This document shows positions 5,882-47,625 of a stretch of 64,000 bases of DNA, in pieces. Positions within the stretch are counted from its first letter, which is position 1. Every line of letters starts with the position of its first letter. The DNA lies in contig JANSYR010000001.1 of the NCBI GenBank assembly GCA_024742285.1, positions 62,001 to 126,000 on the forward strand, read 5' to 3'. Source of the DNA: a bacterium (GTDB lineage: Bacteria; Myxococcota_A; UBA9160; UBA4427). The notes under the pieces were generated by a model. The model saw only the letters and a program-made list of their open reading frames with translations, did not search any database and was not told where the DNA came from. Both the position numbers and the translations under genes were made by a program.

Positions 5882-6679
5882 ATGGGCCGACTCGACGGAA
5901 AGACCGCGATCATCACGGGCAGCGCCCAGGGAACCGGCGAGGTCCTCGCCCACGTCTTCGCCGAGGAAGGCGCGAGCCTCGTCCTCGGGGACGTGCAGGA
6001 CGAACGCGGCGAATCCGTCGCCCGGGAGCTCGGGGGGCCTGCTCGATTCGTCCATCTCGACGTCTCCGACCCGGGTGACTGGTCGAAGGCGGTCGACACC
6101 GCGGTGGACGCCTTCGGCGGCGTCGACGTCCTCGTGAACAACGCAGCGATCCTCCTGCTCAAACCCTTCGACGAGATCAGCCCCGACGAGTTCCTGCGCA
6201 TCGTCCAGGTGAACCAGCTCGGGCCCTTCCTCGGGATGCAGGCCGTGTTCCCCGTCATGAAGGAGCACGATGGCGGATCGATCGTGAACATCGCCTCGAC
6301 CGACGGCATCAAGGGCATGAACGGCGTCGCCGCCTACGCCTCGAGCAAGTGGGCGGTACGCGGCCTGACGAAGTCCGCGGCGATCGAGCTCGGCCGATAC
6401 GCCATCCGCGTGAACGCGGTCTGTCCCGAAGCGGGGAACCCGAACATGAGCGCGCCCTTCTTCCCCGGGAGTCCGGACCTGACCGACGTACCCCACCAGA
6501 TGATGCAGAAGATCCTGAAGGATCCGAAGCCGGTGGTGCCGGGCAGTCGCCTGCGCGACGTCGCGAACATGGCCCTCTTCCTGGCGTCCGACGAGAGCCG
6601 ATCCTGTACCGGGGGCGATTTCGTCGTCGACGCGGGGCTCACGGTGGGCTGGTACCAGGAGGGCGTTCCCTCCGCCTGA
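5882..6679 (+). CDS. Short-chain dehydrogenase/reductase (1 of 3)
   Basis: Classical SDR of 265 residues. The NAD(P)-binding motif is ITGSAQGTGE at 11-20, NNAA is at 86-89, and the catalytic set is S139, Y152 and K156 (YASSK). An aspartate in GDVQD after the second beta strand suggests preference for NAD(H). The start follows AGGAGG at about 7 bases; an upstream in-frame start would lack a ribosome site. It is divergent from P450 1, so it may oxidise the alcohol that the P450 makes, but that link is inference. Confidence 0.92.
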   Translation: MGRLDGKTAIITGSAQGTGEVLAHVFAEEGASLVLGDVQDERGESVARELGGPARFVHLDVSDPGDWSKAVDTAVDAFGGVDVLVNNAAILLLKPFDEISPDEFLRIVQVNQLGPFLGMQAVFPVMKEHDGGSIVNIASTDGIKGMNGVAAYASSKWAVRGLTKSAAIELGRYAIRVNAVCPEAGNPNMSAPFFPGSPDLTDVPHQMMQKILKDPKPVVPGSRLRDVANMALFLASDESRSCTGGDFVVDAGLTVGWYQEGVPSA

Positions 6680-6823
6680 GCCCGGGACACGCCGTTCCCG
6701 GGTCCCCGGTTCCGCTCGATCTGGAGCTTTCCGCCGAGGTTCCCTCGCGAGAAACTCCGATTCGCTCTCCGCGCGCCCGTAGGGGCAAAGGCCCCGGTCG
6801 GGGCCGGCCGATACGCGGGGGAG

Positions 6824-8071
6824 ATGGCCAGGAAAACGAACTCCCTCTTCGACCAAACCCTCGATCGGTCGGTCTTCGTCGCGTTCTTCCTGGGCGCGGT
6901 CACCCCGCTCCTCGGCTTCGCGGTCGTGAGCGAACGGCTGATGCCCGCGCTCGAGAGTCGCGACGACCAGATTGCGCTCGCGAGCCTCGTCGTCACGACG
7001 GGCTTCCTCTCCCTCGGCGCCTTCCTCGCGCTCCGGCGGATCGTCGCCCGAACCCTCGCCGACATCACCGATCAGAATGACCGTCTCGAGTCGCTCCTCC
7101 TCGTCGCCCGCGAGCTGGCCGATGCTCCGCACGCACAGATCGTCGCGGAGACCGCCTCCGTCTGGGCCGCGCGCCTGACCGACGCCGACGCGAGCTGGAT
7201 GGTCACGCGCGAAGACTGGGACAAGCCCTTCACGGTCCTCGCCAGCCGTGGGGGAGACGCGGAAGCATGGCTCGAGGCCTGCGGCGACGAGTGGCGGGAG
7301 CTGGCGAGTCGGCACGTCGAAGCCGAGACCCCGATCCGCATCGACGGCGAGGGCAGCGACGCACCTTCGGTCGTCCTCGTCCCCGTCGCCCTCGAGACCG
7401 AACCCGGCGCCCATCTCGTGGTCGCACGCCGCGAACGGGCCTTCTCGCCGAATGAAGTCGACGCCGTAGCCACCCTCGCCGCCCAGACGGGCGTCGCCTG
7501 GACGAGCGCGGATCGCGGCGACAGCCAACGCAACTTCTTCAGCCACATGACCGATCTCGTGGTCGCCGCCCTCGACACCCACGTCCAGTACCGGTCGGGC
7601 CACTCGTCCCGGGTCTCGGCCCTGGCGAATCGGGTCGGTCGGGCGATGGGCGTGGAGGACGACGCGCTGCACGACCTCCACTTCGCGGCGCTGCTCCACG
7701 ACGTGGGCATGCTCCGCATTCCCCCCGCTCACCAACGCGATCCGAAGTTCTTTCGCAAGCACGCGACCGTCGGAGCCCGCATGCTCTCACGCATCCGCGT
7801 CTGGGAAGGCGCCGCGCCGATCGTCGGACAGCACCACGAGCGCCCGGACGGGACCGGCTACCCGGACGGATTGGTCGGGGACGACATCGTCCTCGGCGCG
7901 CGCATCCTCGCGGTGTGCGATGCCTGGGATGCGATGCGGACGGAGGACTACCACCGTCCGGCCATCTCGGAAGCCGAGGCCCTGGCCGAGCTCCGGGAGA
8001 ACGTGGGCGGCCAGTTCGACGGTGACGTCGTCGCGGCCCTCGAGGCGCTCGTCCGCGAGGGCGGGCTCTAG
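6824..8071 (+). CDS. Membrane-bound GAF-like / HD-GYP c-di-GMP phosphodiesterase
   Basis: Protein of 415 residues. Two membrane helices (about 16-36 and 51-71) are followed by a helical linker, a GAF-like sensor region (about 95-225) and an HD-GYP domain with the metal pair H292/D293, HH at 337-338 and the GYP signature in DGTGYPDG (345-347). HD-GYP domains hydrolyse cyclic di-GMP; the full motif suggests an active enzyme rather than a degenerate receptor. The start follows GGGGGAG. It stands alone in a 144-base gap after the SDR, and nothing nearby indicates what it senses. Confidence 0.9.
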   Translation: MARKTNSLFDQTLDRSVFVAFFLGAVTPLLGFAVVSERLMPALESRDDQIALASLVVTTGFLSLGAFLALRRIVARTLADITDQNDRLESLLLVARELADAPHAQIVAETASVWAARLTDADASWMVTREDWDKPFTVLASRGGDAEAWLEACGDEWRELASRHVEAETPIRIDGEGSDAPSVVLVPVALETEPGAHLVVARRERAFSPNEVDAVATLAAQTGVAWTSADRGDSQRNFFSHMTDLVVAALDTHVQYRSGHSSRVSALANRVGRAMGVEDDALHDLHFAALLHDVGMLRIPPAHQRDPKFFRKHATVGARMLSRIRVWEGAAPIVGQHHERPDGTGYPDGLVGDDIVLGARILAVCDAWDAMRTEDYHRPAISEAEALAELRENVGGQFDGDVVAALEALVREGGL

Positions 8072-8115
8072 GGGACCGCCGATCGGGCTATGCTGGTCGA
8101 CCCCACGAGGTCGCC

Positions 8116-8979
8116 ATGCACGTCACGCCCCTCGATGCACCCTTCGGTGCCCAGCTCCACCTCGAGACCGACGACGCGCTCGGTCCCGAAGAAGTCGACG
8201 TCCTGCGCCGCGCCTTCGCCGAGCACGGCTTTCTGCTCGTGCGCGAAGGCCCGATCGACGATGCGCGCCAGATCGAGCTCCTCGCCGCCCTCGGACGGGT
8301 CGAGCCGGACGAGAGCGGAGCGCCCATGCGCATGGAAGTCACGAACCAGCACGACGAGACGACGGCGCCCGAGGGCGAGCTCGTCTTCCACTGCGACTAC
8401 GCGTACGACCCGGCGCCGATCCCGGTGATCTCCCTCTACGGCGCCACGATCGACGGGGACGTCACGCCGACCTGCTTCGCGAGCGGGGCGAGCGTGCTCG
8501 ACCGCCTCGCGCCCGAGACCGTCGAGCGCCTGCGCGACCTGACCGCGGTCCACGCGTGCTTCCTCTATCGACACGACGCGCCGGACGCCCGCAGCGAGGA
8601 ACCGGATCCGCTGATCCCGCGCGGAGAGCCGGGCTGGGGTCCCGCCCACTACTGGCACCACCACGCGGCGATCCTCGAGAATGCGTTCGGAGTCGAGACG
8701 CTCTTCGTCTGCCTCCAACACACGGATCGCTTCGAGGGCCTCCCGCGCACGGTCTCCGACGGTCTGCTCGAGGAGCTCTTCGCCGCGCTCTACGCCCCGG
8801 ACGCGATCTACGAGCATCGCTGGCAGCCCCACGATCTCCTGATCTGGGACAACCTCACGATCCAGCACGCGCGGCCCGAACCGATCGACCGTCCACGCAC
8901 GCTCCGCCGCTATCACGTGTCCGAGACGGACCTGACCGCGGACTACGTCCGCGTCGCCCGCGAGCAGGGGATCATGTAG
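8116..8979 (+). CDS. TauD/TfdA-family Fe(II)/2-oxoglutarate dioxygenase (1 of 2)
   Basis: Protein of 287 residues, the normal TauD length. The iron ligands are visible as H92-x-D94 in FHCDYAYD and the distal histidine H251 in WDNLTIQHAR, followed by the 2-oxoglutarate arginine in TLRRYH. The family hydroxylates sulfonates, phenoxyacetates, acyl-CoAs and other acids; the substrate here cannot be read from sequence. A TATGCT hexamer lies 22 bases before the ATG and GAGG lies about 6 bases before it. The gene ends facing the epimerase gene. Confidence 0.9.
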   Translation: MHVTPLDAPFGAQLHLETDDALGPEEVDVLRRAFAEHGFLLVREGPIDDARQIELLAALGRVEPDESGAPMRMEVTNQHDETTAPEGELVFHCDYAYDPAPIPVISLYGATIDGDVTPTCFASGASVLDRLAPETVERLRDLTAVHACFLYRHDAPDARSEEPDPLIPRGEPGWGPAHYWHHHAAILENAFGVETLFVCLQHTDRFEGLPRTVSDGLLEELFAALYAPDAIYEHRWQPHDLLIWDNLTIQHARPEPIDRPRTLRRYHVSETDLTADYVRVAREQGIM

Positions 8980-8993
8980 CGGTCACCGGGCGC

Positions 8994-9911
8994 CTAGCCC
9001 TGGAGCGCGTCCGGGTGACGCTTCTCGAGGGCGCTCCGGACGCCGTCCTTCCAGTCGACCTTGCAGGGTCCGCCGAGCGCCTTCCGCCGCGTGTTGTCGA
9101 GGACCTTCATCCCCCAGGACGCGTCCGGTCCGGTCTCCATCTTCATCGTGAGCCCCGTCAGACTCTCGACGTAGGCGATGATCTCCTCGACGGCGACGAC
9201 CTGATCGCCGCCGAGATTCACGATCGGCGCCGGCACGTCCGCCTTCAGGATCAGGTTCTGGACCTGCTCGGCGATGTCGTCCTCGTGGATCGGCGAGCAG
9301 TAGCTGTCCCCGCCCTCCGCCCGGGTGTACGTCATCCCGTTCTTCATGAACTCGTAGATGATCATCGGCACGCCGCCGTGCCCCCGCGATCCATACGCCA
9401 CGTCGAGCCGCGTGATGATCGTCTTGAGGTTCAGGGCGCGAGCCTGGAACCGGACGACCGCCTCGCTCGCGAGCTTGCTCATCGCGTAGTGCGGCGAGTA
9501 GCTCGCGTAGCCGCCGAGCTCGTTGTCTTCGGTGATCGGCTCGCTGGAGCTCGCCGGAACCCGGTAGACCGACGAGGACGACATGTGCAGGAATGCCTTC
9601 ACGTCCTTGTACCGCTGCATGAGGAAGCCCGAGCCCTCGGCGTTCTGGGCCATCCCGATCTCCGGCGTCTTGGGATCGACGTTCGCGCCGCAGTGGATCA
9701 CGTAGTCGACGTCCGGCAGCCCCGCGAGGTCCGACTCGCCCATCGAGAAGAAGGCGGTCTTCACGCCGAGCGCTTCCAGCTCGTCCTTCGCCTGGGCATC
9801 CGAGAAGCGGGCGGCGGCCCAGACTTCGTTGTTCTCTGAGAGCTTCTCGGTCAGGGGGCGGGCGACCTGGCCGGTCGCTCCCGTGACGAGGATCCGCTGT
9901 CCGTCGAGCAT
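8994..9911 (-). CDS. NAD-dependent epimerase/dehydratase (extended SDR)
   Basis: Protein of 305 residues starting MLDGQRILVTGATGQVA, with the TGATGQVA nucleotide-binding loop, a later serine run (MSSSSVY) and the catalytic YAMSK. Its length and the VNLGGDQ segment match atypical or extended SDRs of the epimerase/dehydratase group. The start at 9911 has AAAGGAG about 9 bases upstream; the longer open frame upstream is antisense to the CoA-transferase leader. Substrate unknown. It is divergent from a CaiB-type gene with only 56 bases between the starts. Confidence 0.88.
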   Translation of the reverse strand: MLDGQRILVTGATGQVARPLTEKLSENNEVWAAARFSDAQAKDELEALGVKTAFFSMGESDLAGLPDVDYVIHCGANVDPKTPEIGMAQNAEGSGFLMQRYKDVKAFLHMSSSSVYRVPASSSEPITEDNELGGYASYSPHYAMSKLASEAVVRFQARALNLKTIITRLDVAYGSRGHGGVPMIIYEFMKNGMTYTRAEGGDSYCSPIHEDDIAEQVQNLILKADVPAPIVNLGGDQVVAVEEIIAYVESLTGLTMKMETGPDASWGMKVLDNTRRKALGGPCKVDWKDGVRSALEKRHPDALQG

Positions 9912-37613: not shown

Positions 37614-37705
37614 ATTCGCGAGCGCACCGGCAATGGGTCTCAGTGGAAACCCGGAGCCGACCGATGGGGAGGAGACCCCGCCCCCCTGTGCGGAGTCCAA
37701 GATCG

Positions 37706-38266
37706 ATGACCGAGCCTTCGTTCCCGTGCGTTCCGACCCCCCGGCTGATCCGGGCGCTCGGCTTCCTCGCCGCTCTCGCCCTGCTCGTCCCGGCGGCGAC
37801 GCACGCCGCGACCGACGGCGCGCTCGGACTGAGCTCGGTCGGCTCGACGGAGGTCTCGATCGTCCGCGGCGAGACCGCGCAGGCGTCGGGTCTCGAGGAC
37901 ATCGTCCTCGCGCCCTGGACGGAAGGCGATACCGCCCCCCGCGGCACCGCCACCGCGTGCATCTACACGAGTACCGGCAGCTATCAGATCACCGCCTCGA
38001 GCAGCAACGGAGCCGGTGGGAATTTCCGGCTCAACTCGGGCACGGCGTTCATCAACTACCGCGTGCGCTGGAACGACGGCGTGAGTGGCCTGACGCTGCT
38101 CTCGAACGGCACCCCGGCGACGGGCTTCGTCGGCGACAGCACCAGTCTGAACTGCGGCGGCGCGAACCCCGCAACGATCCAGGTGAACATCCGGAACGCC
38201 GCGATCTCCGCCGCGCCGACCGGCGCGTACAGCGACACCCTGACGATCATGATCACCCCGCAGTAG
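37706..38266 (+). CDS. Secreted Csu/SCPU-type (spore coat U-like) protein
   Basis: Protein of 186 residues with a long signal peptide, hydrophobic core LIRALGFLAALALLVPAATHA, mature from about residue 36. The mature part is all beta: a cysteine in TATACIYTST, a second in SLNCGG, and the end motif GAYSDTLTIMITPQ. These are typical of the SCPU domain found in Csu-type chaperone-usher pilins and related secreted proteins. Usher and chaperone genes are absent here, so a pilus role is unproven. The ATG at 37706 was chosen because it opens the signal peptide; no good ribosome site is seen. Confidence 0.7.
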   Translation: MTEPSFPCVPTPRLIRALGFLAALALLVPAATHAATDGALGLSSVGSTEVSIVRGETAQASGLEDIVLAPWTEGDTAPRGTATACIYTSTGSYQITASSSNGAGGNFRLNSGTAFINYRVRWNDGVSGLTLLSNGTPATGFVGDSTSLNCGGANPATIQVNIRNAAISAAPTGAYSDTLTIMITPQ

Positions 38267-38670
38267 GCGGTCGATCGGGGACGCGAGAACCGCCCACGAA
38301 GCGAGGCCCCGGCACGTCCTTCGCTCGTCAGCCCGATTCCCCGGCAGATCGAGGCGAACCGTGCCGTCGGCGCCTCCGCCAGGCACCCGCCTGGCCAGAA
38401 GGGCGGAGCCTGCTCGGAGAGCGACATTTTGGGGCGCCGGGTCTCCGGACGAAGCGCGGCGCGCGTCCAGAGCAAGCTCCTGCAAGGTGATCACCCGATT
38501 TCGATCGGATCGCGTTCCCCGATGGGATAGCGCTCAAACCCACTTCACGTTCATTCTCGCGAACCCAGGTTCATTTATTGGGATTTTTTTCCCAATTTTG
38601 TCTAGATTCGGGCGATCGAATCAAGCTCGGCCCTCGGGCCGGCAACGGACAAGGAACAGGAGTGGGACTC
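38267..38670. other. 404-base non-coding stretch before the first DUF5666 gene
   Basis: No credible gene on either strand. It has paired segments CGGCACG/CGTGCCG (38310-38316, 38360-38366) and CTCCGCC/GGCGGAG (38374-38380, 38402-38408) around a small AGGC-ACCC-GCCT hairpin (38381-38392), a 10-bp palindrome GGTGATCACC (38486-38495), and a relatively AT-rich end with a hairpin. It may hold a structured leader and promoter for the lipoprotein gene. No known riboswitch core was recognised. Confidence 0.4.
38577..38596 (+). terminator. Hairpin ATTGGGA-T6-TCCCAAT followed by TTTT
   Basis: Seven perfect pairs (38577-38583 with 38590-38596), a T6 loop, then TTTG. The shape is that of a short intrinsic terminator, but the stem is weak and AT-rich. 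It lies 75 bases before the lipoprotein start, so it could also be part of its promoter or an attenuator. Confidence 0.3.
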
Positions 38671-40200
38671 ATGGGACGCTTTTTCCGACGAGCAATCACG
38701 GTCGTCGCCGTACTCACGATCGTCGCCCTGGTGGGCTGCGGCGGAGGGGGTGGCGGCGAGGACTCCGCAGGCACCGCCTCCGCGGTCACATCGACTTCCG
38801 AAGGCCCGATCGCGGGCTTCGGAAGCATCATCATGAACGGCGATCGCTGGGAGACGAGCGGCGCCGACGTGGACGTCGAAGGCATCCCCGGATCGCAATC
38901 CGATCTGGCCGTCGGCATGGTCGTCCGGATCGAGGGCTCGCGGTCGAACGGCCGCGCCCGCGCGCGACGCGTGATCTTCGCCCCTCGTCTGGTCGGGCCG
39001 ATCCGATCGATCGAGGAGCTCTCCCCCGACGCGCGCGCGCTCGAGATCCTCGGTCGACGCGCGATCGTCTCACGCGCTTCGACTCACTTCCGGAATACGA
39101 CCCTCGACGACCTCGAGGTCGACGACCTCGTCCTGGTGAGCGGCCTGGTCAACGAAGCGGACGAGCTCGAGGCAACCTTCCTGCGGGATCGCGGCGACGC
39201 GATCGTGGGCGAGAGCCGGGTGCGGACCTTCGGCACTGTCGAAGGCCTGTCCGGTGGCAGCTTCATGATCGGCACGAGCGAGATCCTCTTCGACGGCGAC
39301 ACCGAGCTCGAGGACCTCGGCGAGGATGGTCTCAGCGAAGGCGACGTCGTCCGCGTCCGCGGCGTCCTGCTCGCGAACGACGCCATCGACGCGTCCCACA
39401 TCAAGGGCCGCGAAGACGATGACGACGACGACATGGACGAGGTCGAGATCCAGGGCATCGTCTCGAACTACGTCTCGATCGCAGACTTCAAGGTCGGCGG
39501 CCGGCAGGTCGACGCGAGTGGTGCGCGGCTCATGCCGAACGACCCGACCCTGCTCCGCGACGGCGTGCTCGTCGAAGCCGAGGGACGTTGCCGTGAAGAC
39601 GGGGTCCTCGTCGCGACCAAGCTGAAGTTCCGGTCGCATCGCGTTCGCATCCACGCCGAGGTCGCCTTCGACGACGACATCGACCCGGTCGACCGTGAGC
39701 TCACGCTGCTCGGCATCCCGATCACCGTCGACGACGGCGCCCGGCTGCGCGATCGCCGCGATCGCATCGACGGCTTCGATCTCGAAGACGTCGGCGCCGG
39801 CGACTTCCTCGAGGTCCGCGGCATCGCGCGCCCCGACGGCAGCGTCATCGCGGCCCACGTCCACCGTGACAGGTCCGGCGACATCCGCCTCAAGGGGCCG
39901 GTGACGACCATCGACCGCGACGCCCACGAGATCGGAGTCCTCGGCATCGTCATCCCGACTTCGTCCCGCACGGAATTCGAGATGGAAGACGGCGCTCGGC
40001 TGAGTCGCGACGCGTTCTTCGACCGCGTCGAGGCCGGCTGGAAGGTCCACGTCCGCGACCGTGAGGACGGGGACGAGACGTCGATCGACGTGGCCGACTC
40101 GGTCGAGCTCGAAGCCCCGGAGCTCGAGGACGACGACGAGGACGAAGCGCCCGACCCCGACGACGAGGACGAGGACGACGACTCGTCGGACGACGACTGA
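38671..40200 (+). CDS. DUF5666 repeat lipoprotein A
   Basis: Protein of 509 residues. The start at 38671 gives a lipoprotein signal (MGRFFRRAITVVAVLTIVALVGC) with AGGAG upstream; a start at 38578 would bury it. The mature protein is a chain of small beta-barrel-like units in which GPIAGFGSIIMNG, DLAVGMVVRIEG and GPVTTIDRDAHEIGVLGI recur in varied form, as in DUF5666 proteins. The last 40 residues are almost all D and E, which may bind calcium or other cations. Function is unknown. Cell-surface or periplasmic outer-membrane placement is expected. Confidence 0.82.
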   Translation: MGRFFRRAITVVAVLTIVALVGCGGGGGGEDSAGTASAVTSTSEGPIAGFGSIIMNGDRWETSGADVDVEGIPGSQSDLAVGMVVRIEGSRSNGRARARRVIFAPRLVGPIRSIEELSPDARALEILGRRAIVSRASTHFRNTTLDDLEVDDLVLVSGLVNEADELEATFLRDRGDAIVGESRVRTFGTVEGLSGGSFMIGTSEILFDGDTELEDLGEDGLSEGDVVRVRGVLLANDAIDASHIKGREDDDDDDMDEVEIQGIVSNYVSIADFKVGGRQVDASGARLMPNDPTLLRDGVLVEAEGRCREDGVLVATKLKFRSHRVRIHAEVAFDDDIDPVDRELTLLGIPITVDDGARLRDRRDRIDGFDLEDVGAGDFLEVRGIARPDGSVIAAHVHRDRSGDIRLKGPVTTIDRDAHEIGVLGIVIPTSSRTEFEMEDGARLSRDAFFDRVEAGWKVHVRDREDGDETSIDVADSVELEAPELEDDDEDEAPDPDDEDEDDDSSDDD

Positions 40201-40367
40201 GTCCGAAGGGACGGAGACGAGGTGGCCGCAGCGAACGACGAAAGCGTCGGTCGCTGCGGTAGCCTCCGGCTCGGTCGCGGGGACGGGAGGCGACCGCCGG
40301 GTCGCCGCACCCGACCCGCGACGAGTCGAGCGATCGCGCCCCCTTCGAGAAACGGAGACGCCGCGCC

Positions 40368-41198
40368 TTGAGCGAGTCCACGACATCAGCCCTCGAGCGA
40401 GCGGTGATCGCGATGCTGCGACCGGTCGTTCGACTCGTGCTGAAGCGGGGCCTCGCCTACGGACGATTCGCCGAGCTGGTGAAGCGCGCCTACGTCGACG
40501 CCGCGGTCGAGGACTTCACCGTCCCGGATCGCAAGCTCTCCATCTCCCGCGTCGCCGTCCTGACCGGCCTGACGCGGAAGGAAGCGAGCCGACTGATGCA
40601 GACCGAGACGGAGAGACCGACCGAGATCACGCGGCGCCAGGTGAATCGCGCCGCCCGCGTCGTCTCCGCCTGGGTGACGGAGACGCCCTACCAGGATGCC
40701 GGCGGGCAGCCCGCGACGCTGCCCTTCGAATCCGATGACGACGCGAGCTTCTCGGCGCTCGTCGCCGCCCACGGCGGAGACGTCGGGCCCCGCGCGGTCC
40801 TCGACGAGCTCTTGCGAGTCGGCGCCGCGGAACGCCGAGACGACGGTCGGATCCGGCTCCTCGAGCGAGCCTACGTCCCCGCGACCGACGAGGACGCCAA
40901 GCTCGACATTCTCGGGACCGACGTCGCCGATCTCGTCGCCACGATCGACCACAATCTCGAGCCCGAGCGCCGCGCGCCGCACTTTCAGCGGAAGGTCGCC
41001 TACGACCACCTCCCTGCCGACTACCTGCCCGCGCTTCGCGCGCTGCTCGCCGAGCGCGGCCAGTCCCTGCTCGAAGAGCTCAACGCCGACATGCGCCAGC
41101 ACGACGCCGACATGACCGGAGAGCGTCCGCCCGCGGGTGAACGTCACCGAGCGATGGTCGGCATCTACTACTACGAGGAGCCCCTCGATGACGACTGA
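40368..41198 (+). CDS. DUF6502-type protein, putative DNA-binding regulator
   Basis: Protein of 276 residues from a TTG at 40368, with GGAG about 11 bases upstream; an internal ATG at codon 16 would cut into the conserved start (MLRPVVRLVLKRGLAYGRF). ISRVAVLTGLTRKEASRLM looks like a helix-turn-helix, and the N-terminal block is the one I associate with DUF6502. The rest is helical without a recognised domain. It sits between two DUF5666 lipoprotein genes and overlaps the second by 11 bases, so it may control their expression. Regulatory role is inference. Confidence 0.7.
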   Translation: MSESTTSALERAVIAMLRPVVRLVLKRGLAYGRFAELVKRAYVDAAVEDFTVPDRKLSISRVAVLTGLTRKEASRLMQTETERPTEITRRQVNRAARVVSAWVTETPYQDAGGQPATLPFESDDDASFSALVAAHGGDVGPRAVLDELLRVGAAERRDDGRIRLLERAYVPATDEDAKLDILGTDVADLVATIDHNLEPERRAPHFQRKVAYDHLPADYLPALRALLAERGQSLLEELNADMRQHDADMTGERPPAGERHRAMVGIYYYEEPLDDD

Positions 41199-42717
41199 GA
41201 CCTCGCCTCGTTTCAGCCTCGGAGACCGCCGCGGCGCGCGACGTGTTCGCAACCTCCTCGCAGCGCTCCTGCTACTGCCCGTGCTCTCGTGTACCGATGG
41301 CAGCGGCGGGTTCGCCGACAACGGCGGCATGAGCGGAACCGGGATCAGCGACGGCGAAATCACGGCCTTCGGGAGCATCTTCGTCGGCGCCGTGCGATGG
41401 ACGCTTCTCAGCGCCGCCGTCGAGCTCGACGGACAGAGCGCGACGGAGGCCGATCTGCGCCTCGGCATGGTCGTCCGCGTCGAGGGCGACTTCGACCCGG
41501 GCAACACCTCCGGGCGCGCGCTCCGCGTTCGCTACGACCCCGAGCTCGAGGGACCGATCGAAGCCCCCCCGATCGAAATCATTCCGGGCGTCGAGAAGAG
41601 CGTCTCGATCCTGGGCCGAACAGTGATCGTCGACGCCACGCGAACGGTATTCGCCGACGGCGCGGATTTTGCGACCCTCGCGACCGACGACGTGCTCGAG
41701 GTGAGCGGCCTCGCGAACGACGCAGGCACGATCCGCGCGACGCGTGTCCGACTTCGCGGCGTCTACCCGACCGTCGACGAAATCGACCTGCGGGACGAAG
41801 TCACGAATCTCGTCAAGAATCCAGATGGCAGCGGGATCTTCGATCTCGGCCCGATCACGGTCAGATACGCGACCGCCACGCCCTTCGACGACCTTACGCG
41901 CCCGGCGCTCCAGAACGGCGTCCGCGTCGCGGTCGAAGGCACGCTTCGACCGAGCGGAGACGAGGTCGACGCCACGCTCGTGGAACGCGCCGAGCGCGGC
42001 TTCGGCACGGCGGACCTGGCCCGCGCCGAAATCGAAGGCTTGGTCGTGAACTGCCCGACAGCACCCGACTTCTGCGTCCGCGGAGTTCCGGTCGATGCCT
42101 CCTCCGCGGTCTTCGAGCCGTCGGGCTTCGTTCCGATGCCCGGTGACCGCGTGGAAGTCGAGGGATCCGTCGTAGCGGGCGTGTTGATCGCCGACGAGGT
42201 CGAGGACGAGTCCGATGATCTGGCGGGCGCCCGGCTCGAAGGCGCCGTCTCGCGCATCGACGTCGGCTCGAACACGCTCACGCTCCTCGGCGTCACGGTC
42301 CGCGTCGACGGCAGCACTCGTCTTCGAGACGATTCGGATGCGGAGGACGAGTCGTTCACGTTCGCGGAGATCGCGGTCGACGACTATCTCACGGTCCGCG
42401 GCCACGAAGACGGCGGGGACGTGCGTGCTCGCCTCATCCGACGCGACGATGCGACGCCGGGTGCGGACGACGTCCGCCTCCAGGGACCGGTGACCGCGCT
42501 GGACCGGGTGACGCCGACGATCTCGGTCCTCGGCCAGCCGATCCCGCTCGACGCGGGCACGCTCTACTTCGACGCGCCGGGAACACCCCGAAGCGAGGAA
42601 GAGTTCTTCCGGACTCCGGGCGACGTGATGCTCGGCGACGTCATCGCGGTGGAAGACGTCGACGCCGTCTCCCTCTCCACGCTCTTGGAAGCCGACGAGG
42701 TCGAGATCGAGGACTGA
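41188..42717 (+). CDS. DUF5666 repeat lipoprotein B
   Basis: Protein of 509 residues, by coincidence or ancestry the same length as lipoprotein A. The start at 41188 lies inside the last codons of the DUF6502 gene behind GAGGAG. The signal has a basic leader, LLAALLLLPVL and lipobox LSC. Repeat units start with GEITAFGSIFVG and DLRLGMVVRVEG, matching the units of lipoprotein A, but the acidic tail is missing. Function unknown; export to the outer membrane is expected. Confidence 0.82.
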   Translation: MTTETSPRFSLGDRRGARRVRNLLAALLLLPVLSCTDGSGGFADNGGMSGTGISDGEITAFGSIFVGAVRWTLLSAAVELDGQSATEADLRLGMVVRVEGDFDPGNTSGRALRVRYDPELEGPIEAPPIEIIPGVEKSVSILGRTVIVDATRTVFADGADFATLATDDVLEVSGLANDAGTIRATRVRLRGVYPTVDEIDLRDEVTNLVKNPDGSGIFDLGPITVRYATATPFDDLTRPALQNGVRVAVEGTLRPSGDEVDATLVERAERGFGTADLARAEIEGLVVNCPTAPDFCVRGVPVDASSAVFEPSGFVPMPGDRVEVEGSVVAGVLIADEVEDESDDLAGARLEGAVSRIDVGSNTLTLLGVTVRVDGSTRLRDDSDAEDESFTFAEIAVDDYLTVRGHEDGGDVRARLIRRDDATPGADDVRLQGPVTALDRVTPTISVLGQPIPLDAGTLYFDAPGTPRSEEEFFRTPGDVMLGDVIAVEDVDAVSLSTLLEADEVEIED

Positions 42718-42721
42718 CGAG

Positions 42722-42743
42722 GCCCGCGAGAAAAAACGCGGGC
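42722..42743. terminator. Hairpin GCCCGCG/CGCGGGC between convergent genes
   Basis: Seven perfect GC-rich pairs (42722-42728 with 42737-42743) enclose an AGAAAAAA loop, 5 bases after the DUF5666 B stop. There is no T run after either arm, so it would be a factor-assisted or bidirectional terminator. Confidence 0.4.
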
Positions 42744-42768
42744 GACCAGCTCCTGGGAGCGCCTCGCG

Positions 42769-43062
42769 CTAGCCGATCCCGTTCACCAGGACCGCGAAGT
42801 GGTTCGACGTCGCGTCGAGTCGGACCTTCGCGAGCTTCTGGTACTCGCCCGAGTGATAGGCCTCCTTGGCCTCGTCCATCGAGTCGAAGGCGAGGACGAC
42901 GGTCTGGTGACCCGGCGCGCCCTCGAGCTTCTGACTGTCCCCGTCGAAAGCCACGAGCTTCGCCTTCTCCCCGATCTGCAGGACCGGTCCCGCCGCGGCG
43001 GAGTACTCGCCGTATTGCTCGGCGTTCTCGACGTTGTAGTTCACGATCAGATAGGCGGGCAT
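42769..43062 (-). CDS. DUF1330 family protein
   Basis: Protein of 97 residues with a ferredoxin-like alpha/beta fold. AYLIVNYNVENAEQYGEY at the start, and KLEGAPGHQTVVLAFDSMD and EAYHSGEYQKL further in, are family landmarks. Some DUF1330 members bind small molecules or act as minor metabolic enzymes, but the role of this one is unknown. It stands alone, converging with DUF5666 B and divergent from the RND operon. Confidence 0.85.
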   Translation of the reverse strand: MPAYLIVNYNVENAEQYGEYSAAAGPVLQIGEKAKLVAFDGDSQKLEGAPGHQTVVLAFDSMDEAKEAYHSGEYQKLAKVRLDATSNHFAVLVNGIG

Positions 43063-43270
43063 GGAAAATCCTCGGAGTTGGGAGAGAGGGGACCACCGCG
43101 AACGCGGGCCTCCGAGTCTAACTCGCCACGGAGCCCGCGCGACGGGCCGTCCTCCCCCCTTGCCCCTTCCCGGCAAGGCGAGCGCTACAGTAGGCGGCGC
43201 GCTCGTCCACGACCTCGTGATCCACCCCCGCGCCGGAACGACCCCCTCCGACTGCGCACCCCGTGACTGG

Positions 43271-44392
43271 ATGCCCCGACTCTCCCAACGATCCACGCCC
43301 ACGCTGGTCCTCGTCGCGGCCGCCCTGCTCGGCCTGCTCGCGATCTGGGGCTTCTATACGTCTGACGGCGCCGCCAAGGCCCGAGAGCGCGATGCACGCC
43401 TCGCCGCCGCCCAGGAGGGCGGACCGACAGAGCCCGCGCCCTCTCTCGAAGTCGAGACCGAGATCGCGCGGGCGATCCCGTCCGCCGAGATCGTCGAGCT
43501 CGTCGGACGCCTCGAACCCGTGCGTTCGACCTGGGTCTCCGCGGAGATCGCGGGACGGATCGTCTCGGTCCCGGCGACCGAGCACGCGCCGATCACGAAA
43601 GGCGCGGTCCTGGTCGAGCTGGACTCGGCGCTCCCGCGCGCGGAGCTGATCCGCGCGGAAGCGAGCCATCGCCTCGCGAAGGCCGAGCTCGAACGCCAGC
43701 AGCGACTCGGCAAGCGCTCCGTCGCGAGCGAGGCGGAGCTCGATTCCGCCATCGCGGAGGAGCGCCGAAGCTATGCGGCGCTGCTCGAGGCGCGGACCCG
43801 CCTCGCGCACACGCGGATCGCCGCGCCCTTCGACGGGCTCGTGAACGCGCTCGACCTCGATCCGGGGACCTATGTCCAACCGGGCTCGCGCATCGCGGAG
43901 GTCCTCGACCTCTCGGTCCTCGAAGTGACCGTCCTCGTCGGCGATCGACAGGTCGGCTCGCTCACACCGGGTGCGGACGCCCGGATCCGCGTCGACGTGC
44001 TCGGCGACGCGCCCTTCGAGGGTCGGATCGCCCGGGTCGCCGGTGCGCCCGTCGACGAGGGCAGCCGCTACCCCGTCGTCGTCGAGCTGGCGGTGCCCAA
44101 CGGCGACGAAGCGCGCCATCCGCGCCCCGGGATGGTCGCCCAGGTCCAGTTCGAGGTCGGACGCGCAGCCGCGATCCGCCTGCCGGCGCGGGCCGTCCTC
44201 GACGAGTTCGAGCTCCAGTACGTCTACGTCCTCGATGCGCAAGACCGCGCGACCCGCGTCCGCGTCTCGACACGGCCGGTTCCCTTCCGTCCGGATCGCG
44301 TCGAGATCACCGACGGGATCGAGGACGGTACCCGGGTCGTCGTGACCGCCGTCGACCAGCTGCGAACCGGCATGCGCGTACTCGTCCGATGA
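43271..44392 (+). CDS. RND efflux periplasmic adaptor (membrane fusion protein)
   Basis: Protein of 373 residues. An N-terminal anchor helix (LVLVAAALLGLLAIWGFY) is followed by a barrel-sandwich lipoyl half, a coiled-coil hairpin (residues about 125-180, EASHRLAKAELERQQRL), the second lipoyl half with RIAAPFDGLV, a beta-barrel and a C-terminal proximal domain. No ribosome site precedes the ATG at 43271, and the frame is open upstream, so the start may be a little earlier. The stop overlaps the pump gene as ATGA. It should link the inner-membrane pump to an outer-membrane channel encoded elsewhere. Confidence 0.9.
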   Translation: MPRLSQRSTPTLVLVAAALLGLLAIWGFYTSDGAAKARERDARLAAAQEGGPTEPAPSLEVETEIARAIPSAEIVELVGRLEPVRSTWVSAEIAGRIVSVPATEHAPITKGAVLVELDSALPRAELIRAEASHRLAKAELERQQRLGKRSVASEAELDSAIAEERRSYAALLEARTRLAHTRIAAPFDGLVNALDLDPGTYVQPGSRIAEVLDLSVLEVTVLVGDRQVGSLTPGADARIRVDVLGDAPFEGRIARVAGAPVDEGSRYPVVVELAVPNGDEARHPRPGMVAQVQFEVGRAAAIRLPARAVLDEFELQYVYVLDAQDRATRVRVSTRPVPFRPDRVEITDGIEDGTRVVVTAVDQLRTGMRVLVR

Positions 44393-47300
44393 CGCTCCCC
44401 GAGTTCAGCGTCCGCCAGACGGTCTTCGTCAACGTCCTGTTCTTCGTCTGCATGATCGGCGGCTGGAACGCACTCCAGCTGACCGAGGTCGAGTACTTCC
44501 ACGACGTGGTGCTCAACCAGGTCGTCGTCACGACCCAGTGGACCGGCGCCTCGGCGGACGAAGTGGAACGCCTCGTGACGGCGAAGCTCGAGGAAGAGCT
44601 GATCACGATCGGCGACGTCGAGGAGATGCGCTCGGCGTCCCAGTCGAACATCTCGATGATCAGCCTCGACATCGACGAGACCCTCGAGACCGTCGACTAC
44701 GAATCCGCCGTCAACGACATCCGCGGCGCGATCGACCAGGCGGAAGACCTGCCCCTCGACGCGGAGGAACCCAGCCTCCGGGAGATCATCTCCGCCGAGG
44801 TCTCGGACGTCGTCTTCATCGTCGTGAGCGACACGGGCGACGTCGGCGAGCTCGCCCTCCGCGACATCGCGCAGGAAGTCGAGTCCCGGGTCCGCGAGAT
44901 CCCCGGCGTCTCGAAGGTCGACATCCGCGGATTCCAGGAGCGGGAGGTCCGCGTCTTCGTCGACCGGGCCCGCGCCAACCTCCACGGGCTCACGATCGCC
45001 GACATCGCGGAGCGCGTCCGGCGCCAGAACCAGAACCTCCCAGCGGGCACGCTCCAGGACGAGTTCGGCGAGGCGACGGTCCGGGCGACGGGTGATTACC
45101 GATCCGTCGACGAGATCCTCGACACCGTCGTCCTCGAGGAGCCGGACGGGACCCTCGTCCGCGTCCGCGACGTCGGGCGCGTCGAGCGCGGCCTCGAGAA
45201 GGCGACCTTCGTCACGCGCTACCTCGGCCGCCCCGCGGTCGTCATCTCCGTCGCCAAGAAGGACAAGACCGACGTCCGCCACCTCGTCGGGCGCGTCGAC
45301 GCCTTCCTCGAGGAGTTCGACCCGCTCGTGCCGGATGGGATCGAGGTCAACACGACCATCGACAGCTCCGACTTCGTGACGCCCCGGATCGCCGTGCTGC
45401 TCGAGAACCTGGCGGCGGGCATGTTCCTCGTCGCGGCGCTCCTCTGGTTCACGATCGGGTTCCGGAACGCGATGCTCACGATCATCGCGATCCCCTTCTC
45501 GCTCCTGACGGCGATGATCTTCTTCCCGATCCTGGACATCAGCGTCAACTCGAACACGCTGATCGGAATGCTCCTGGTCTCGGGCATGCTCGTCGACGAC
45601 GCGATCATCGTCCTCGAGAACATCTACCGGAAGATCGAAGAGGGCATGGAGCTGAAGCAGGCGGTCCTCGTCGGCTCGAACGAAGTCCTCTGGCCCGTCG
45701 CGACGGCGGTCACGACGACGATCGCCGCCTTCGCCCCGCTCCTCCTCGTCGGCGGAACGGCCGGCAAGTTCGTCTCGGTCATGCCGAAGTGCGTGGTCGT
45801 CTGCCTGGTCGCCTCGCTCTTCGAGTGCCTCCTGATCCTGCCGGCCCACTATCTGGACTTCGGATCGCGCCAGAGCGCCCGGGCCAAGGCGGCCGCCGCC
45901 GGCCCCCGCACGCGCAGCGGCCTCGCCGGGACCTTGCTGGACTTCTTCGGGAAGGGTCGGATCGGCATGGAGAAGGGATTCGGCGCGCTCCGCGCCGGCT
46001 ACCTCGTCCTCCTCGCGCCGGTGATCCGCCACCGCTTCTCGTTCACGGTCCTGTTCATCGCCTTCCTGATGGTGACCGCCGCCGCGAGCACCCGCGTTCG
46101 GTTCGATCTCTTTCCCGGCGAGTTCGCGACCTTCAACATCAGCCTCGAATCGCCGCCGGACTACAGCCTCGAGCAGACCTCCGAAGTCACGCAGGGAATC
46201 GAAGCAGCGCTGCTCGGTCTTCCCGAGGAGGACATCCTCGACTTCAACACGATCGTCGGTCTCGCCGTCGACCTGAACTACGACCGGATCATCGCCCCGA
46301 ACCTGGCCATGACGACCGTCGCCATCCCGCAGACCGAGCGGAACCAGCTCCGACCGCAGGACGTGCTCGAACGCGTCCGCGAGACGATGCGCGCATTCGA
46401 GGCCGACCACCCGGAGGACGTCGTCACGCTCCGCGTCGAGTCTGAGCGATACGGACCGCCCGTCGGCCGCCCGGTCGAGGTCCGCATCCAGAGCGAGGAC
46501 TTCGCGGTCAACAAGAAGATCGCCGAGGAGATCAAGGCCTATCTCGCGACGATTCTCGGAGTCGACGGGATCGACGACAACCTGAAGGAAGGGCCGCGCG
46601 AGATCCGTCTCGAGATCGACGACGAGCGAGCCGCGCAGTTCGGCCTGACCTTCGAAGACCTCGCGCGAGCGCTCCGCGGCGCGAACGACGGCGTCGTCAG
46701 CTCGAGCTTCCGTTCGCCGACCGCCGTCGAGGACGACGACATCCGCGTCCTCCTCGAGCCGGGCCAACGCGACCGGCTGCTCGACCTCCTCGAGATCGAC
46801 GTCCGCGGAAGCGAGGGACAGCTCGTCCGCCTCTCCGACGTGGCGAGGCTCGAGGTCACCCGCGGCTACCTCGCCTACCGGCGCGTGGACGGCAAGCGCG
46901 CGGTCACGGTCTTCGCCGACGTGGACGACGATCTCGCGACGAGCATCTCGGTCAACCGGGATCTGGAGGCACGCTTCGCGGACATCCGCGAGCGCTTCCC
47001 GGCGGTCGATCTGATCTACGGCGGCGAGTACCAGGAGTCGAACGAGTCGATGCGCGAGACCCTCGCGGCCTTCCCGGTCGCGCTGCTCGCCATCTACATG
47101 CTCCTCGCGACCCTCTTCCGGAGCTACACGCAGCCCCTGATCGTGCTGACCTCCGTTCCGCTCGGCTTCGCCGGGATCATCTTCGGTGTGCTGATTCGCG
47201 ACTACAGCATCAGCTTCAACCTGCTCTACGCCGCGGTCGGACTCTCCGGTGTCGTCGTGAACGACTCCCTCGTGCTCGTCGACTTCATCAACCGCGCACG

Positions 47301-47625
47301 ACGCGACGGCATGCCGCTCCTCGAAGCGGTCGCCCAGGCGGGCGCGCAGCGGCTGCGGCCCGTGATCCTGACGACGATGACGACGGTCGTGGCGCTCCTG
47401 CCGATGGCCTTCGGCCTGCAGGGATCCTCCAAGAGCTACGGCCCCTTCGCGGCGGCGATCGCCTTCGGCCTCCTCTTCGCGATGGTCGGGACCCTCTTCG
47501 TGATCCCGCTCAGCTACGCGAGCTTCGCCTCCTTCGAGGAGCGCGCGAAGCGGGCCTTCGGACGAGCGCGGGATCTCGTCGTCAGCGCGCGCCCCGACCC
47601 GACCGGCCCGGGGTTCGGCTCCTGA
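44389..47625 (+). CDS. RND-family efflux pump permease
   Basis: Protein of 1078 residues with two repeats of one helix + large periplasmic loop + five helices, as in AcrB. The proton-relay aspartates are D403/D404 in GMLVDDAII. Helix 10 has VVVNDSLVLVDF. ATGA overlap with the adaptor gene shows coupled translation. Substrate class (drugs, metals or lipids) cannot be told; the DD pair fits the hydrophobic-compound group. Its stop overlaps a CTG that appears to begin the next gene, so a third transporter is probably in the operon. Confidence 0.92.
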   Translation: MTLPEFSVRQTVFVNVLFFVCMIGGWNALQLTEVEYFHDVVLNQVVVTTQWTGASADEVERLVTAKLEEELITIGDVEEMRSASQSNISMISLDIDETLETVDYESAVNDIRGAIDQAEDLPLDAEEPSLREIISAEVSDVVFIVVSDTGDVGELALRDIAQEVESRVREIPGVSKVDIRGFQEREVRVFVDRARANLHGLTIADIAERVRRQNQNLPAGTLQDEFGEATVRATGDYRSVDEILDTVVLEEPDGTLVRVRDVGRVERGLEKATFVTRYLGRPAVVISVAKKDKTDVRHLVGRVDAFLEEFDPLVPDGIEVNTTIDSSDFVTPRIAVLLENLAAGMFLVAALLWFTIGFRNAMLTIIAIPFSLLTAMIFFPILDISVNSNTLIGMLLVSGMLVDDAIIVLENIYRKIEEGMELKQAVLVGSNEVLWPVATAVTTTIAAFAPLLLVGGTAGKFVSVMPKCVVVCLVASLFECLLILPAHYLDFGSRQSARAKAAAAGPRTRSGLAGTLLDFFGKGRIGMEKGFGALRAGYLVLLAPVIRHRFSFTVLFIAFLMVTAAASTRVRFDLFPGEFATFNISLESPPDYSLEQTSEVTQGIEAALLGLPEEDILDFNTIVGLAVDLNYDRIIAPNLAMTTVAIPQTERNQLRPQDVLERVRETMRAFEADHPEDVVTLRVESERYGPPVGRPVEVRIQSEDFAVNKKIAEEIKAYLATILGVDGIDDNLKEGPREIRLEIDDERAAQFGLTFEDLARALRGANDGVVSSSFRSPTAVEDDDIRVLLEPGQRDRLLDLLEIDVRGSEGQLVRLSDVARLEVTRGYLAYRRVDGKRAVTVFADVDDDLATSISVNRDLEARFADIRERFPAVDLIYGGEYQESNESMRETLAAFPVALLAIYMLLATLFRSYTQPLIVLTSVPLGFAGIIFGVLIRDYSISFNLLYAAVGLSGVVVNDSLVLVDFINRARRDGMPLLEAVAQAGAQRLRPVILTTMTTVVALLPMAFGLQGSSKSYGPFAAAIAFGLLFAMVGTLFVIPLSYASFASFEERAKRAFGRARDLVVSARPDPTGPGFGS

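Follow-up and report, generated by a model that had tools for sequence, protein, structure and literature searches.

A gene of the DUF6502 family, here called D, lies between two genes for repetitive DUF5666 proteins, A and B, in a 64,000-nucleotide (nt) stretch of a myxococcotal genome (contig JANSYR010000001.1, positions 62,001 to 126,000; hereafter the window, numbered from its first letter), and the best reading of our analysis is that DUF6502 proteins are dedicated DNA-binding autoregulators, probably repressors, of operons for exported proteins whose repeats are predicted to adopt the oligonucleotide/oligosaccharide-binding (OB) fold. For the window, the explanation that we consider probable as a whole is that A, D and B would form a single operon, in which D would be a cytoplasmic, probably dimeric, DNA-binding protein recognising the palindrome TGGGA-N6-TCCCA in front of its own operon (TGGGA-N5-TCCCA in the other DUF6502 subfamily), and that this binding would most likely repress A-D-B. 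A and B would both be exported and anchored by a lipid, each consisting of six DUF5666 barrels that resemble OB folds; translation of B would be coupled to that of D, and the copy in front, A, would be an optional addition.

The candidate operator ATTGGGATTTTTTTCCCAAT (38577–38596, core TGGGA-N6-TCCCA at 38579–38594), lying 92 nt upstream of the start codon of A, was first noticed by eye and then tested by pattern counts. In the window, TGGGAN{3,9}TCCCA matched this site only (0.28 matches expected). In the whole genome of the window (6.5 Mb), TGGGAN{4,6}TCCCA matched at seven sites, of which the two with an AT-rich centre were that of the window (C1:100579) and one at the locus of the only further DUF6502 gene (contig C18), which is likewise followed by a DUF5666 gene. 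The AT-centred N5 form with at most one mismatch was found three times, always at the C18 locus, and the exact AT-rich N6 form once, in the window. Since a pattern-reversed control gave seven matches with the loose pattern and none with the strict pattern, only the AT-centred form can be regarded as specific. The original prediction had described A, D and B as a self-contained surface system, and its self-contained part fits the confinement of AT-centred sites to the two DUF6502 loci of this genome; location of A and B at the cell surface is presumed.

Site counts were then extended to the best 80 of 562 DUF6502 loci from a genome scan (the named loci). The DNA upstream of DUF6502 (31,942 nt in total) contained 54 exact TGGGA-N{3,9}-TCCCA sites, spread over 33 loci, compared to 27 in 807,071 nt elsewhere, and the spacer was five in all 54 upstream sites. 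When an AT-rich centre was required and up to one mismatch allowed, 66/80 loci had a site in the 500 nt preceding DUF6502 (102 sites in 39,841 nt upstream, 31 in 799,172 nt elsewhere), whereas four scrambled half-sites gave 0/80 loci and spacers of 3, 4, 6 and 7 gave 0, 1, 1 and 3 of 80, respectively. Overall, the predicted recognition of the palindrome by DUF6502 proteins is well supported, and an operator-like site specific to the regulator would precede its own operon, as expected for a one-component HTH autoregulator.

The spacer change between N5 and N6 follows the DUF6502 tree. This was evaluated with 55 DUF6502 proteins, 20 of them from loci of the window's type (the window itself, 16 loci in its family and three in another phylum). 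The window-type proteins formed one clade (support 100/99) comprising 16 with N6, four with no site and none with N5, whereas the other 35 comprised 31 with N5, two with N4/N5 ties and two with no site; one N5 protein (L167) was a long branch placed beside the window-type clade. Exact N6 sites numbered 21 in 14 of the 20 window-type loci, and N5 was found among these loci only at L165, which also carries a common-type DUF6502 gene with an N5 pair upstream.

The association of DUF6502 with DUF5666 was examined in two genome samples, and here the suggestion that the two families are neighbours in other genomes was borne out. Among 140 genomes of the window's phylum, DUF6502 was found in 12 (19 genes), and a DUF5666 gene followed on the same strand in 16/19 cases by Pfam match (E ≤ 0.001) and in 17/19 when one pair detected by a custom DUF5666 profile (G050:C48) was added; the two exceptions were a gene at a contig end (G079) and one for which no partner was found (G129). 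The second sample, 299 genomes from a phylum other than the window's, the one to which a Pseudomonas locus belongs, had DUF6502 in 15 genomes (18 genes); 16 of these genes adjoined DUF5666 by Pfam and 17 with the custom profile. DUF5666 was present in 10/12 genomes with DUF6502 compared to 4/128 without it in the window's phylum, and in 14/15 compared to 10/284 in the other phylum. From these adjacency counts, the arrangement is far beyond chance. The annotated plasmid loci examined, one from Azospirillum, two from Rhizobium and one from Methylocystis, likewise all carried DUF6502 followed by DUF5666 with a 4-nt overlap; no DUF6502 relatives were found in viral contigs.

All three genes of the window are on the forward strand. 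D (40368–41198, TTG start, 276 amino acids) matches the DUF6502 profile (PF20112; cut-off 27 bits) with E = 1e-59 and 202 bits over residues 8–271, corresponding to profile positions 3–263 of 268, that is, over the whole model of a family with no assigned function, which now acquires a candidate operator and a likely role. An AlphaFold2 model of D (mean predicted local distance difference test score, pLDDT, 90.3) contains a predicted helix-turn-helix (HTH) at residues 59–78 (40542–40601) and a winged helix at residues 128–164 (40749–40859). Together with the palindrome in front of the operon, this supports the regulator role proposed for D in the original prediction. In VIA structural comparisons (Z up to 7.0), residues 31–84 matched mostly sigma-factor and TetR-like HTHs, and residues 85–168 IclR-like and other winged helices. 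The match to IclR-type winged helices covers residues 86–168 (Z 5.9–6.2, 60–65 residues, root-mean-square deviation (rmsd) 2.4–3.3), but the likeness ends with the winged helix and other winged helices score equally.

By fold, the nearest known regulator may be HetR, the heterocyst regulator of cyanobacteria, which we take as a lead only. DNA-bound HetR was the best Foldseek match of the D model, although not a significant one (E = 5.7e-3, probability 0.89, low template-modelling score), and whole-chain superposition gave an rmsd of 10–11 Å (Z 6.3–6.8, VIA). According to the available part of a published study, HetR requires a GGG-N5-CCC palindrome (PMC4192349), which resembles the DUF6502 sites in its GGG and CCC halves but differs in spacing, those sites reading GGG-N7-CCC in the common type and GGG-N8-CCC in the window type. 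Given this difference and the poor superposition, membership of D in the HetR family was rejected; D had no match to a HetR family in Pfam, and sequence searches of the PDB with D and with B gave no match.

A (38671–40200) and B (41188–42717) each encode 509 amino acids from an ATG, with a lipobox-like start (LVGC in A and VLSC in B, read by eye), and match the DUF5666 profile (PF18914; cut-off 27 bits) with E = 1.2e-37 and 128.5 bits, and E = 6.8e-41 and 138.8 bits, respectively. The original prediction had noted their identical length and shared repeats, an acidic tail on A only, and an overlap of B with D. Six DUF5666 stretches were found in each protein; among the C-terminal 40 residues (in A, codons 40078–40197), Asp and Glu account for 24 in A compared to 14 in B; and the overlap is ATGACGACTGA, the last 11 nt of D, which are also the first of B (41188–41198), so that all of these observations hold. 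The equal length looks like a coincidence without special meaning, because the open frames of related six-repeat proteins span about 490–540 amino acids, with a few longer ones through over-long starts. The overlap suggests translational coupling of B to D, and overlaps of 4 or 11 nt between DUF6502 and its partner also occur at other loci. A is separated by 404 nt from the preceding gene and by 167 nt from D. Because the palindrome was the only terminator-like match in a scan of 38250–43000, the three genes possibly share one transcript.

DUF5666 is given no function by Pfam, and its domains are predicted here to be OB-fold barrels. A model of B (pLDDT 80.5) shows six small beta barrels, which matched OB folds such as PriB, SSB and the AsnRS anticodon-binding domain with Z 8.6–9.9 over 67–76 residues, OB folds being dominant among the 50 matches listed. 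A shared OB fold says nothing on the ligand of A and B, and nucleic-acid binding is unlikely because, unlike those OB-fold proteins, both are predicted to be exported and have a strongly acidic composition. The original prediction had suggested that the system perhaps binds divalent cations through the acidic tail, which would make A and B calcium- or metal-binding surface proteins. The net charges of A and B (−60 and −49), acidic runs in the A proteins of 3/7 loci, and tails rich in Asp and His on Nitrosomonas partners are in line with that idea, which we nevertheless regard as rather unlikely, since tails vary by lineage (RPE/PEK repeats, DRDH, acidic, none) and B has none, so that the acidic tail does not qualify as a conserved binding element.

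Regarding the direction of control, D likely represses its own operon, as suggested by the promoter context of the palindromes. Among N5 loci, 44/66 had a TATAAT-like hexamer beginning 19–25 nt past the palindrome start, compared to 4–16/66 in six control windows, and in many cases the distance to a −10 hexamer was 23 nt. The palindrome would therefore cover the −35 element and the spacer, which fits repression at N5 loci. In the window, a possible A-D-B promoter was seen by eye at 38578–38608, with a −35-like TTGGGA (38578–38583) inside the palindrome and a −10-like TAGATT (38603–38608); a simple sigma-70 scan detected no promoter at 38578–38608. The opposite possibility, that D activates the operon, has a lower though appreciable probability: in 22 of the 34 loci with at least two upstream sites, the last two are 53–72 nt apart, so that the distal site could occupy an activator position. 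On the other hand, at N5 loci the proximal site extends over the predicted −35 element and spacer (44/66 vs 4–16/66 in the controls), and at several N6 loci it touches a start codon, which both argue against activation.

Several observations weigh against control of the operon by D through this palindrome. In the tree scan, 4/20 window-type proteins had no site, and 13/80 named loci, several of them from Nitrosomonas, had none at one mismatch. N6 loci lack the −10 placement seen at N5 loci (5/19), and the palindrome abuts an ATG at several of them. D has a net charge of −11, although its HTH-bearing segment (residues 50–80) carries +3, and the palindrome could serve another protein. In this last case, DUF6502 would be a passenger or a chaperone-like partner of the exported protein; the binding of the palindrome by DUF6502 is indeed a prediction from sequence, and 24/80 named loci keep DUF6502 without a detected downstream DUF5666. 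We consider such a role improbable, since the spacer length shifts with the DUF6502 clade, in one genome that carries both subfamilies, an N5 pair accompanies one DUF6502 gene and an N6 site the other, the sites of the window's genome are confined to its two DUF6502 loci, D has predicted HTH and winged-helix segments, and the three loci without a GGTG partner described below (L051, L059 and L112) likewise have no site at one mismatch.

An intrinsic terminator or RNA hairpin would be another origin of such a palindrome. The window scan flagged the palindrome with seven pairs (three G-C) and a T-rich sequence after it, and the contact with the start codon at some N6 loci could also suit a hairpin. 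This alternative is nonetheless very improbable: the spacer is fixed at five or six by subfamily and other lengths are almost absent, a constraint that pairing in RNA would not call for; many sites are followed by a −10 hexamer instead of a T-run; and the distance of 53–72 nt between the last two sites in 22/34 multi-site loci likewise speaks against a hairpin. An operator recognised by D stays the preferred reading of the palindrome.

In loci of the window's type, B is the invariable partner, and A an optional upstream copy. B follows DUF6502 in 18/18 loci with room, whereas A precedes it in only 7/20 (the window, L141, L142, L143, L144, L163 and L164); two of these seven belong to the other phylum. 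The strict A-D-B bracket was thus rejected as the defining unit, being absent from 13/20 loci, and bracketing by two lipoproteins, which the original prediction had put forward, does not hold as a rule. The acidic tail cannot be a defining feature either, because only three of the seven A proteins have long acidic C-terminal runs (the window, L144 and L163), while in L143 and L142 the end of A is less acidic, and in L141 and L164 it is only short. In a tree, the A proteins of the window, G152 and G156 formed one clade (100/100), with which those of G093 and G145 did not group with support, so that a strong single origin of A cannot be claimed. At L163, a second, shortened DUF6502-like frame (6445–6840, 131 amino acids) lies between DUF6502 and B.

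To survey the exported partners in the named loci, we used a DUF5666 profile built up from the repeats of the window and a GxGGTG-type motif pattern that also admits GISGTG and GMSGTG. DUF5666 was found directly downstream of DUF6502 in 56/80 loci, and all 56 had the motif; the other 24 comprised 14 with a motif protein lacking DUF5666, eight with neither and two without room. Control open frames at the same loci had the motif in 8/599 cases, five of which were a GIGGTG lipoprotein encoded divergently, directly upstream of DUF6502, in five of the eight loci with neither, and one a second DUF5666 protein. An exported GGTG protein thus stands beside DUF6502 in 75 of the 78 loci with room, the exceptions being L051, L059 and L112. 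The predicted switch, its palindrome and this type of exported protein are shared by numerous bacteria that are not closely related. B carries the local form GMSGTG (41326–41343), which falls in a conserved block of columns, unlike A, in which the motif scan detected none. DUF5666 partners elsewhere have mostly three to five repeats, preceded by GGTG repeats and followed by a low-complexity tail. GGTG-coding DNA was set aside as a target of D: every Gly codon and every Thr codon is used at the motif, so that selection seems to act on the protein.

Some named loci depart from this arrangement. At L046, L048, L049, L100 and L109, the divergent lipoprotein-like GIGGTG protein is encoded on the opposite strand just upstream of DUF6502, and the usual downstream partner is missing; at L100, a gene reading like a sensor histidine kinase (by eye) lies in the partner's place, 22 nt past the DUF6502 stop. 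At L057, tandem DUF5666 proteins (6816–8282 and 8352–9785) follow DUF6502 and are mates in the tree (100/99), pointing to a separate duplication.

Further palindromes were seen near other exported proteins. At L046, L048, L049 and L109, a second site lies 71–95 nt before a separate exported lipoprotein gene downstream, which suggests that this lipoprotein is co-controlled. In the window's own genome, two palindromes 30 nt apart (L036:7887–7931) near the DUF6502 pair of C18 begin 94 and 64 nt before the gene of a 162-amino-acid exported protein (7981–8469), a possible further regulon member. At the Pseudomonas loci L099, L114 and L119, an exported, partly glycine-rich protein (frames of about 235–305 amino acids) lies behind a palindrome upstream of DUF6502, and at L114 palindrome and partly glycine-rich protein occur again downstream, at about +3447 from the start of the DUF6502 match.

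An outer-membrane barrel gene was present in 54/80 named loci and adjoined the partner in 48/80 (22 on the same strand, 26 convergent). Examples are Phenol_MetA_deg-like (L077:8403–9155, L060:3939–4739 and L045:8079–8888), and two of four examples were over the Pfam cut-off of that family. A site of its own was found for 5/30 oppositely oriented and 0/24 same-strand barrel genes; with so few, it is the neighbourhood that argues for co-control. The barrel was rejected as part of the window-type system because no match was found in the window or in L141–L156; a relative in the window's genome (C9) has no DUF6502, DUF5666 or GGTG gene nearby. A wider picture can be drawn, in which DUF6502 would be a widespread family with a fold distantly related to HetR, controlling an unrecognised envelope or extracellular system of GGTG/OB-repeat proteins and barrel, with the half-site spacing having moved by one base pair at the window-type split, but we consider this full picture improbable.

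As for the surroundings of the operon, the gene just before A (37643–38266, forward strand) encodes a 207-amino-acid protein with a spore coat protein U match below the Pfam cut-off (E = 5.6e-4). Downstream, a DUF1330 gene on the opposite strand lies between A-D-B and a resistance-nodulation-division efflux pair on the forward strand (43061–47625: periplasmic adaptor 43061–44392, pump 44389–47625).

Literature searches found no paper naming DUF6502, and DUF5666 appeared only in table entries, list entries or passing mention in the available portions of the papers; GIGGTG gave only an unrelated match, and the palindrome letters only unrelated papers among the matches listed. Going by the searches for DUF6502 and for the palindrome letters, the palindrome as a candidate DUF6502-linked operator is new here. 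The finding would give two domains a shared context, in which DUF6502 would obtain a DNA target and DUF5666 a predicted fold under its control. The one-base difference in spacer between the subfamilies would be a natural case of a regulator and its operator spacing changing together, and the operator and the GGTG motif may serve as a search handle for the rest of this exported system, from Pseudomonas, Azospirillum and Nitrosomonas to Myxococcota.

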